A stretch of DNA of 48,236 nt from Methanosarcinaceae archaeon (GTDB lineage: Archaea > Halobacteriota > Methanosarcinia > Methanosarcinales > Methanosarcinaceae): contig JAFGCK010000116.1 of the NCBI GenBank assembly GCA_016932675.1, positions 1 through 48,236 on the forward strand, in the 5' to 3' direction. Both the position numbers and the translations under genes were made by a program. Within the stretch, counting starts at the first letter, position 1, and every line of letters starts with the position of its first letter. Below, in pieces: positions 32,321 to 36,242 of this stretch. Below the pieces are notes generated by a model. The model saw only the letters and a program-made list of their open reading frames with translations, was not told where the DNA came from and made no database searches.

Positions 32321-33730
32321 ATGAAGATCAACAGTCCACTTGAAGCTTATAAGTTCCTGCCTGGCACCAACTGTGGTGAATGTGGCGAGCTGACATGTAT
32401 GGCCTTTGCAGCACACCTTATCGACAGATCAAAGAAGCTCACAGAATGTAAGCCCATCCTTGAAGACAAGTTCAAAAAGAAGTTCGAGGAACTTACCGCA
32501 CTCCTTGCCCCTGAGATAAGGGAAGTGGAAATCGGTGTCGGTGACAGGGTATCAAAGATCGGCGGAGATGACGTTCTCTACAGGCACAAGCTTACATTCT
32601 TCAACCAGACCCAGTTCGCATACGATGTATGGGATACCATGGATGAGAAGGAACTCGTGGAAAGGGTGAACTACATACAGGACTTCAAAAAGTTCTATGT
32701 AGGTAGCTTCCTTAATGTGGATATGGTAGCCGTCCGCTGCACATCCAATGACCCTGCAAAGTTTGCAGCAGCAGTTAAGAAGGTCGTTGAAACCACAGAC
32801 ATGCCGATCATTCTCTGTTCCTTTGAACCGGCGGTCCTCAAAGCAGGTCTTGAGGTCTCAAAGGACAGGAATCCACTGCTCTATGCAGCTAACAGGGACA
32901 ACTGGAAGGAGATTGCTGACCTTGCACTTGAGTACGATGTACCTGTAACACTCTTTGCACCTGATGACCTTGAACTGCTCAAGTCAATGGCAAAGACCTT
33001 CGCTGCCATGGGCACCGAGAAACTCGTGCTCGATCCGGGAACGTTCCCCACAGGCAAGCAGCTCAGGCAGACCTTTACCAACTTCATCAAGCTTCGCAGA
33101 GCAGGTATCGAAGGTGACCGTGACATCGCATATCCTATAATGGCAGTTCCATTCACAGCATGGATGGCCCATGATGACCCTGTAAGTGCATCTTACTGGG
33201 AGACCGTGGTCGCATCGATATTCACCATCAAATATGGTGATATAATGATCCTGCACAGCACAGAACCATATGCCATCCTGCCGGAGATACACATCCGTGA
33301 TACCATGTACACAGACCCCAGGAAACCTGTTTCTGTCGATCCGGGTATGTACAAGGTAGGAGAGCCTACTGTGGACTCACCTGTACTGATCACGACCAAC
33401 TTCGCTCTCACATATTACACAGTAGAGAGTGATCTCGCCTCAAGCAAGATCGACTGTTATCTCTGGGCAATTGATACCGACGGTATCGGCGTAGAGGCTG
33501 CTGTGGCCGGTGGGCAGCTTACTGCCTCCAAGATCAAGAAAGGGATCGAGGATTCCGGATTCGATCTTAAGAAGGATACAACACATAACACCATCATTAT
33601 TCCCGGACTTGCAGCACGCCTGCAGGGTGACGTGGAAGATGAGACCGGTGCAAATGTGATGGTCGGTCCTGCAGATTCCGGCAGGATACCTGGCTGGATG
33701 GATAAGAACTGGCCACCACAGAAGAAGTAA
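32321..33730 (+). CDS. cdhE: Acetyl-CoA decarbonylase/synthase gamma subunit (corrinoid Fe-S protein)
   Basis: N-terminal 4Fe-4S motif YKFLPGTNCGECGELTCMAFAAHLI, operon position. Confidence 0.96.
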   Translation: MKINSPLEAYKFLPGTNCGECGELTCMAFAAHLIDRSKKLTECKPILEDKFKKKFEELTALLAPEIREVEIGVGDRVSKIGGDDVLYRHKLTFFNQTQFAYDVWDTMDEKELVERVNYIQDFKKFYVGSFLNVDMVAVRCTSNDPAKFAAAVKKVVETTDMPIILCSFEPAVLKAGLEVSKDRNPLLYAANRDNWKEIADLALEYDVPVTLFAPDDLELLKSMAKTFAAMGTEKLVLDPGTFPTGKQLRQTFTNFIKLRRAGIEGDRDIAYPIMAVPFTAWMAHDDPVSASYWETVVASIFTIKYGDIMILHSTEPYAILPEIHIRDTMYTDPRKPVSVDPGMYKVGEPTVDSPVLITTNFALTYYTVESDLASSKIDCYLWAIDTDGIGVEAAVAGGQLTASKIKKGIEDSGFDLKKDTTHNTIIIPGLAARLQGDVEDETGANVMVGPADSGRIPGWMDKNWPPQKK

Positions 33731-33878: not shown

Positions 33879-34241
33879 ATGTGGAAAAGCATGGAAGCCA
33901 TAATAAGACGCTCCGACAGCCTCCAGGTAACAAAGGAAAAAAAGCACTGCACTATCATTGGTAATGTTACAGATGTCAGTGATGTCTATATCCTCAAACT
34001 TGCCGAATGGGCTACCGGATCATGGGACTATGACAAAATAACCATGTGGAGAAAATCGGATTCCATGGAACCAGGGTACTTCATTCGTGACAGCCCCGGA
34101 GGGAAATATAAACTACATGTCCTTGATAATGAACAGCTGGAAGCCCTTTTTGGTGCATCACGCAAAGATAGTCCCGGGAGATTGCGTGACTGGAAAGAAA
34201 AGGGACTTGTGGCCTATGTGGACTGGCTGGTAGATCAGTAG
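33879..34241 (+). CDS. Hypothetical protein
   Basis: 120-aa ORF with coding-like composition; no family recognised. Confidence 0.65.
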   Translation: MWKSMEAIIRRSDSLQVTKEKKHCTIIGNVTDVSDVYILKLAEWATGSWDYDKITMWRKSDSMEPGYFIRDSPGGKYKLHVLDNEQLEALFGASRKDSPGRLRDWKEKGLVAYVDWLVDQ

Positions 34242-34276: not shown

Positions 34277-34456
34277 TTAAAAGCCGCAATCGTGAACCAT
34301 TATTTCAGGATGCGTATCTTTTGTGAGGTCAGCTCTTGTCTTTGATTCAAGGTATTTCAGGTACTCGCATTTCCCGGTTTTCCTGAAAATAATGCAATTG
34401 CTACAGTAAAGCATCCTGTTCTTTTCCGAATAGCCGACAGATTCTATTATACACAT
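34277..34456 (-). CDS. Small Cys-containing protein, 59 aa (not in supplied ORF track)
   Basis: MCIIESVGYSEKNRMLYCSNCIIFRKTGKCEYLKYLESKTRADLTKDTHPEIMVHDCGF*; overlaps the 3' end of the preceding small gene. Confidence 0.65.
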   Translation of the reverse strand: MCIIESVGYSEKNRMLYCSNCIIFRKTGKCEYLKYLESKTRADLTKDTHPEIMVHDCGF

Positions 34457-34611
34457 TTTCCCACTCTTTCCTTTTTAAGTCCGATCACCATGTCCTTTGC
34501 CGAAGTAATCCTGCCGCAGCATTTGCAATAATAGAAGACATTAGAGCCTAATAACTGCCTCTTCAATTCCTTATTGCAGTGTTCGCAGGATATGACGATC
34601 TTCTCATTCAT
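34447..34611 (-). CDS. Small zinc-ribbon-like protein, about 54 aa
   Basis: MNEKIVISCEHCNKELKRQLLGSNVFYYCKCCGRITSAKDMVIGLKKERVGKCV; CxxC...CxxC pattern. Confidence 0.7.
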   Translation of the reverse strand: MNEKIVISCEHCNKELKRQLLGSNVFYYCKCCGRITSAKDMVIGLKKERVGKCV

Positions 34612-34648
34612 AGCTGCTACTCCATCAGATCTGATACTCCCCAACCCT

Positions 34649-34801
34649 TTATTTTGCTTCGATGCCACCGATCATGAACCTGATCAGTTCCAGGTCCTCC
34701 GGGTCGATTGTTCTCTCATACAGACCATTGACAACAAATGTGATATCGTTATCTGTTTTTATATTTTTGTACGATTTTGCATATTCTTTAATATTGCACA
34801 T
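34649..34801 (-). CDS. Small protein, 50 aa (not in supplied ORF track)
   Basis: MCNIKEYAKSYKNIKTDNDITFVVNGLYERTIDPEDLELIRFMIGGIEAK*; SD AAAGGAGC upstream of ATG. Confidence 0.65.
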   Translation of the reverse strand: MCNIKEYAKSYKNIKTDNDITFVVNGLYERTIDPEDLELIRFMIGGIEAK

Positions 34802-35174
34802 AATTATTGCTCCTTTCTCATTATACAGATGCAGTATTCCTCACTAAACATATATATTTAATGTAAATAATTGATATATTTGCCAATAAAGTATATATTT
34901 TATATATTAGCCCGTGCTATTTATCAGTGATTAAACTATATACGCCGATTTATTTATAAAGCAATAATAATTCAGGAGGCAGGTTACAGATCCGCTTCTG
35001 GGAAAGGGATTTGTAGCCAGCATATTTTAACCGGAAGTGAGAAGCTGCGTATATCCGGATAGTTCCTTTGCAGAATATATTGGATGCATGAGGTCCTGAA
35101 TACGATCATGTGCATTGAACACAGATAACTTAACAGGGGAAAACATTATTAGTCCGGGCAGGGATTGTGGAACG

Positions 35175-36242
35175 ATGAACTATACCATTTGTCCCAGATG
35201 CGGGAAGGATACGGAAAGACTGATTGACGGTCTTTGCCAGGAATGTTTCTTTGAGAGCTCCGACCTTGTGAAAGTGCCGCTTGTGTTGCACACAACTATA
35301 TGTTCAGGCTGCGGGGCACGATTTAGCAGGGGCAGGTGGACAAATGACCTGAATATCGATGAGATCATAGTACAAACCGTGGAGGATGAACTGCTCATAC
35401 ATGAAAAAGCAGATGACATCGACATCTGTATCGAACCCGGACAGATGACACCACACCTGTATCGTGTAAGAGTAAAGGTCAGTGCCTCTTTGATGGGCGA
35501 GGAAGTCAGCCAGGAAGTGGGGGCCGAGGTACGCATCACACGCATGGCCTGTGACATGTGCAGCAGGGTCTCAGGAGGGTATTTCGAATCCATACTCCAG
35601 ATAAGGGCTACCAAACGTCGCCTTACGGATGATGAGAAGAAAAAATGCATGTCCATTGTCAGCTCCGTCCTGGAAAGAATGCGCAAAAGAGGCGATAGAA
35701 TGGCATTTATTTCTAATTCCATCGATGACAGGGAAGGCATTGACCTCTATATGGGTTCTGCAAACGCAAGCCGTGATATATGCAGGGAGACAGTGGCCGG
35801 GCTGGGTGGCAGTTTCTCGGAATCACCCAACCTTTTCACCAGAAAGGACGGGAAGGATGTTTACAGGGTCACATTTTCATTAAGGCTGCCTGAATTCATG
35901 CCCGGCGATATCATAGAGTTCGGGGGGAAGGTGGTCGAGGTGAAAAAGTTCGGCAGGAATGTGACAGGAACAGACCTTATGACAGGTTCCAGATTCATTT
36001 CAAAACCAGATGATATGCAGGGAGCAGAACTGCTTGCACGAAGGGAAGATGCGGTCAAGACCGTAGTCGTTGCAACAGAAAAGGATGAACTGATGTTGCT
36101 CGATCCCGAGACATTTGAGACAGTGACGATCAAGAGGCCCCTTCTGTTCACTGCAGAAGCAGGAGACGAGGTCCCTGCAATTAGAACACGTAACGGTGTT
36201 GTGGTACTGCCGGAAGGAACAGCAAAGAAGACCGGTAAATGA
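35175..36242 (+). CDS. nmd3: NMD3-family ribosome-associated protein
   Basis: MNYTICPRCGKDTERLIDGLCQECFF, CSGCGARFSRGRW, MACDMCSRVSGGYFESILQIRA. Confidence 0.93.
   Translation: MNYTICPRCGKDTERLIDGLCQECFFESSDLVKVPLVLHTTICSGCGARFSRGRWTNDLNIDEIIVQTVEDELLIHEKADDIDICIEPGQMTPHLYRVRVKVSASLMGEEVSQEVGAEVRITRMACDMCSRVSGGYFESILQIRATKRRLTDDEKKKCMSIVSSVLERMRKRGDRMAFISNSIDDREGIDLYMGSANASRDICRETVAGLGGSFSESPNLFTRKDGKDVYRVTFSLRLPEFMPGDIIEFGGKVVEVKKFGRNVTGTDLMTGSRFISKPDDMQGAELLARREDAVKTVVVATEKDELMLLDPETFETVTIKRPLLFTAEAGDEVPAIRTRNGVVVLPEGTAKKTGK

Follow-up and report, generated by a model that had tools for sequence, protein, structure and literature searches.

Archaea are already known to encode free-standing zinc microproteins, and small genes without annotation are likewise a known kind. 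The C(P)XCG zinc-finger microproteins of Haloferax volcanii, among them HVO_2753 and HVO_0758, are free-standing proteins of <70 aa with two CxxC pairs (PMC11241148, PMC10716476). Nine of 14 Haloferax zinc microproteins bound zinc, and such predicted proteins sometimes bind none (PMC11241148). Small proteins have also been described in Methanosarcina mazei (sORF_06, sP26, and sP36), some of which modulate metabolism, and sORF_06 carries four clustered cysteines (PMC11456600). The sulfur and iron-sulfur handling of methanogens is only partly understood (PMC8351635, PMC7585200).

We analyzed a 48,236-nt stretch of DNA (here, the window) from a methanogen of the family Methanosarcinaceae, which contains a cassette of three small minus-strand genes that we designate A50, B54, and C59. 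B54 has the size, the free-standing architecture, and the two CxxC pairs of the Haloferax proteins, but no homology to any named one was found, its zinc is predicted, and its gene shares a conserved operon with members of two other families. The M. mazei small proteins come from the same archaeal family, and sORF_06 has four cysteines, as the Cys4 proteins of the cassette do, but C59 was not found in genus g7, which is probably Methanosarcina. A ribbon fold like that of Rpb9/TFIIS-type zinc ribbons and of ZifS is predicted for B54, but neither the sequence nor the fold comparison gives a significant E value, and B consists of a single ribbon with no domains on either side. Finally, at the SufS-type loci of the Methanosarcinaceae the widespread copy of A immediately precedes the desulfurase gene in all 14 genomes examined, whereas the cassette in the window has no adjoining desulfurase gene, and A differs from SufE, SufU, and every other named partner. 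New here are the A and C families, neither of which has a name, a conserved operon, and the link between A and SufS; literature searches, which left most subscription journals outside their reach, found no paper on any of these. The features discussed below are as follows, with positions in the window.

34649-34801, minus strand: A50, 50 aa, from a family essentially specific to the Methanosarcinaceae among the genomes sampled, with a conserved C terminus (F..GG...K) at its extreme end
34447-34611, minus strand: B54, 54 aa, whose sequence and predicted fold are those of a Cys4 zinc ribbon, CxxC-x16-CxxC
34277-34456, minus strand: C59, a 59-aa Cys-rich protein with C2, C18, C21, and C30 invariant
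34447-34456, minus strand: 10-nt B/C overlap, comprising the stop region of B and the start region of C
34845-34884, minus strand: promoter-like block 5' of A, ATATATA.ATTAT.T.CAT....TATATAT, about -83 to -44 from the A start
33879-34241, plus strand: D120, 120 aa, a convergent neighbor downstream of the CODH/ACS operon, with no known family
32321-33730, plus strand: CODH/ACS corrinoid iron-sulfur subunit gene of the cdhE type, at the end of the cdh operon flanking the cassette
35115-36242, plus strand: NMD3 family gene, the divergent flank of the cassette

The original prediction had read three minus-strand frames at these coordinates, the second of about 54 aa with CEHC...CKCC and a 10-nt overlap with the third, and all of this proved exact. 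The ATG at 34611 is the start of B54 and is backed by sequence comparison with relatives; an ORF lister instead begins at the GTG at 34668 and returns 73 aa. A and B are separated by 37 nt in the window, and ribosome-binding sites precede A (GAAAGGAG) and B (GGAG). A homologue search across 61 relatives recovered A, B, and C throughout the window's genus, identified through named relatives as Methanolobus, at one syntenic place, with best E values of 6e-17, 2e-24, and 8e-33, respectively. At this locus beside the CODH/ACS operon, A and C are each present in 26 of 27 Methanolobus genomes (C unbroken in 24) and a B ribbon in 24, and the single genome without the cassette is 70% complete. The check on conservation and synteny that the original prediction had proposed thus returned relatives of all three frames in nearly every Methanolobus genome, with order, spacing, and overlap kept. 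The 10-nt overlap itself is retained in 22 of the 25 Methanolobus genomes having all three genes, the exceptions being a deletion in B, a late frameshift in B, and a frameshift in C.

All three genes are under purifying selection. Codon-level comparison gave pN<pS in 99-100% of pairs, and the median dN/dS over pairs with finite dS was 0.23 for A, 0.16 for B, and 0.12 for C, ratios that are rough because most pairs are close to saturation at synonymous sites. That the region holds chance ORFs or a noncoding RNA, an idea favored by the small size of the frames only, is refuted by this codon-level selection; conservation, the ribosome-binding sites, and the absence of any Rfam family matching the region speak against it as well, and its probability is next to nil. 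A50, B54, and C59 are almost certainly a conserved set of real genes.

Conserved order, spacing, and overlap, together with a single conserved promoter-like block 5' of A, lend strong sequence-based support to the operon that had been proposed, and we infer from them that A, B, and C are cotranscribed. Within the block the major-base frequency is 0.77-0.85, compared with about 0.42-0.60 in most of the flank, and a TATA-like element lies in it at a plausible distance. A scan of six genomes for the motif returned one exact copy in the window's genome, that of the cassette itself, and the motif was not found at the SufS-locus copies of A. A wider regulon sharing the motif was considered and is not supported, since two-mismatch counts in the six genomes were at most about twofold above a reversed-pattern control. 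B is internally deleted in one species (G013), C is frameshifted in another (G015), and both are degenerate in a third (G020) that keeps A. These losses show that parts of the cassette are separable, and that B and C have been lost independently speaks against an obligate complex and weakens the case for a strictly three-part system.

Outside Methanolobus, in genus g25 the cdh operon likewise ends beside D120 and the A-B-C cassette (L136, L145), and the coordinates in its member G148 show the 10-nt overlap to be kept. D120 is present in 25 Methanolobus genomes and in g25; among 113 genomes of the family it occurs only in these two genera, and it has no Pfam or NCBIfam family. The arrangements in other genera are as follows: B then C in genus g23; A, C, and ribbon genes at another place in g5; C elsewhere in g8 and g4; and A then a B-type ribbon, without C, in g3. 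Among 240 genomes of the class, C was found in six genera, all Methanosarcinaceae. Members of the A family occur in 105 of the 113 Methanosarcinaceae genomes, and a match in a single genome outside the family is of marginal significance. In the genomes sampled, both families are essentially confined to the Methanosarcinaceae. In G112 (L148:978-1151) the B frame contains an in-frame TAG where relatives continue to the C overlap, either a nonsense mutation or a site of pyrrolysine read-through; read-through was also considered for a TAG in the C gene of g8 and rejected, as that codon looks like an ordinary stop. The divergent side of the cassette varies. The gap to NMD3 is 313 nt in the window, and FIST, PAS histidine kinase, and DUF362 4Fe-4S genes are absent there. 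The other Methanolobus loci read have a DUF362 4Fe-4S gene in the interval that separates the cassette from NMD3. In G008 (L095:8618-12581) genes for a FIST-domain protein and a PAS histidine kinase diverge from the cassette, and genes similar to these two occur in g25 (L136:7724-11562; L145:674-4460).

By sequence and predicted fold, B54 is a Cys4 zinc ribbon, and it presumably binds zinc. C9, C12, C29, and C32 are invariant in 29 relatives and form two CxxC knuckles. The AlphaFold model has a ribbon core with a pLDDT of about 90, strands at residues 15-21, 24-29, and 35-37, and a disordered tail; the structures closest to it are ribbons of the Rpb9 type and ZifS, a small zinc protein, with a best Foldseek E value of 0.075, which is not significant. 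The conserved C-terminal Cys-Val of B was considered as a functional element and set aside, as it is better explained by overlap with the Met-Cys start of C, given that C2 is kept where B and C do not overlap. For the same reason C2 is kept for the sake of C itself. Across six genera C2, C18, C21, and C30 of C are invariant, and other genera carry a further C36, whereas intact Methanolobus copies lack it and have C57 near the C terminus instead; this looks like a moved ligand, though it could be coincidence. The AlphaFold model of C59 is of low confidence (pLDDT 48), and a PDB profile search with C gave only chance-level matches. The cysteine spacing of C59 is reminiscent of that of an FeoC-like Fe-S protein, and the Pfam FeoC model matched none of 10 C members at E 0.5. 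The original prediction that two members are Cys rich was correct for B and C, whose cysteines are among the most conserved positions. Its statement that no known family could be recognized stands for A50 and C59, neither of which scores above a curated Pfam or NCBIfam cutoff; B54 is a recognizable zinc ribbon for which no family exceeded its cutoff. A metal, redox, or regulatory system, as then suggested, is a plausible reading.

The best functional lead comes from A50, which has a family-wide paralogue, a small protein whose gene immediately precedes that of a SufS-type cysteine desulfurase; the window's genome has both copies, A50 being the second. When 20 A-bearing loci were probed with a desulfurase query, a SufS-type class-V aminotransferase gene lay directly downstream of A in 14 of them, from 14 different genomes, and the six without this neighbor were cassette-type copies, which have no adjoining desulfurase gene, or extra copies, as in G011. 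The desulfurase-linked copies encode 50-58 aa (L124, L128, L129, L132-L135, L137-L139, L143, L144, L146, and L149) and, in all 10 loci inspected, are preceded by GAGACAGGAGG or a close variant of it, an extended ribosome-binding site. The enzyme is assigned to Pfam Aminotran_5 (E 4e-130) and scores 427 bits against the SufS subfamily model, just under the cutoff of 475. In an alignment of A with its paralogues the N-terminal half is variable, and the conserved stretch is C-terminal, ends exactly at the stop codon, and includes the invariant residues F42, G45, G46, and K50. Comparison of A50 with SufE-, SufU-, and IscU-type acceptors gave no family match, the A alignment has no conserved cysteine, and a PDB profile search with A gave nothing. 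Orthologues of the desulfurase occur without an A gene in genera g9 and g10 and outside the Methanosarcinaceae, which rules out an obligatory pairing and indicates that A is not essential to the enzyme; A seems to have been added within the family. We take the position of the paralogue beside a SufS-type gene as a testable clue, and any function of A50 suggested here is read from that neighborhood. A protein of 50-58 aa that is near-universal in the Methanosarcinaceae, belongs to no named database family, and is encoded 5' of a SufS-type gene in all genomes examined is a direct candidate for experiment in a family that includes the genetically tractable Methanosarcina.

We tentatively propose that the cassette is a small module for handling or sensing sulfur or metal, possibly Fe-S clusters. 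A would have begun as a desulfurase-associated factor and been duplicated into a module with B and C, and through its conserved C-terminal segment it may act on the SufS-type cysteine desulfurase or its sulfur acceptors. B would serve as a zinc-bearing adaptor or regulator, and C, whose translation would be coupled to that of B by the 10-nt overlap, could hold a metal or an Fe-S cluster on C2, C18, C21, and C30 plus C36 or C57. A more specific form of the proposal, in which the A family is an unrecognized family-wide partner of SufS-type desulfurases and A-B-C a second, dedicated module for sulfur or Fe-S delivery or sensing built from a duplicated A copy and two Cys4 microproteins, seems to us rather unlikely as a whole. 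The main rival holds that B is a free-standing ribbon contacting RNA polymerase, DNA, or the ribosome, with A and C as partners, the set acting as transcription or translation regulators. In its favor, the B model is similar to ZifS and to the N-terminal ribbon of Rpb9, B has weak sequence similarity to ribosomal L37Ae ribbons, and its paralogues are dispersed beside unrelated genes such as that for pyruvate phosphate dikinase (PPDK) or paired with another ribbon; one-domain zinc finger microproteins of Haloferax also matter for stress adaptation, biofilm formation, and swarming (PMC6562870). However, the ribbon is a very common fold, the Foldseek matches fall short of significance, and the link between A and SufS is left unexplained, so we regard a regulatory role as somewhat less likely than the module.

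Position suggests a further possibility, that the cassette is an accessory to CODH/ACS, for example in Ni/Fe-S cluster maturation. It adjoins cdh and D120 in both Methanolobus and g25, and a B-type ribbon gene lies just upstream of cdhA in G036 (L157). Yet the two genera have an ancestry in common that accounts for the position, cassette and cdh operon are convergent and therefore not cotranscribed, and in the loci read g4, g5, g8, and g23 keep C away from cdh, for which reason we down-weight this role to an improbable one. More improbable still is a toxin-antitoxin-like or mobile small-gene cassette: the genes are tiny and overlapping, members are occasionally lost or decayed, and G011 has its extra A, but the chromosomal position is fixed across the genus, A stays when B and C are lost, and viral contigs hold no relatives of the cassette genes. 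The sulfur or metal module thus remains the reading that we put forward, and whatever its function the cassette illustrates how proteins conserved across a genus slip under annotation cutoffs, automatic annotation tending to miss such genes.

Relatives of the B54 ribbon are scattered through the Methanosarcinaceae; some have a second tiny ribbon as partner, and some lie downstream of PPDK. A B-type ribbon gene follows a PPDK-like gene in L153, L155, L156, and L157, the last of these being the G036 locus near cdhA. Genes of the second tiny zinc-ribbon family, which has the pattern CPxC...CxxC.YW...GTARLDS.M, immediately precede B-type or C-type genes (L130:5026-5314; L126:7572-8063; L154:5192-5672; L142:7756-7935), and pairs of tiny Cys4 proteins therefore recur in the Methanosarcinaceae.
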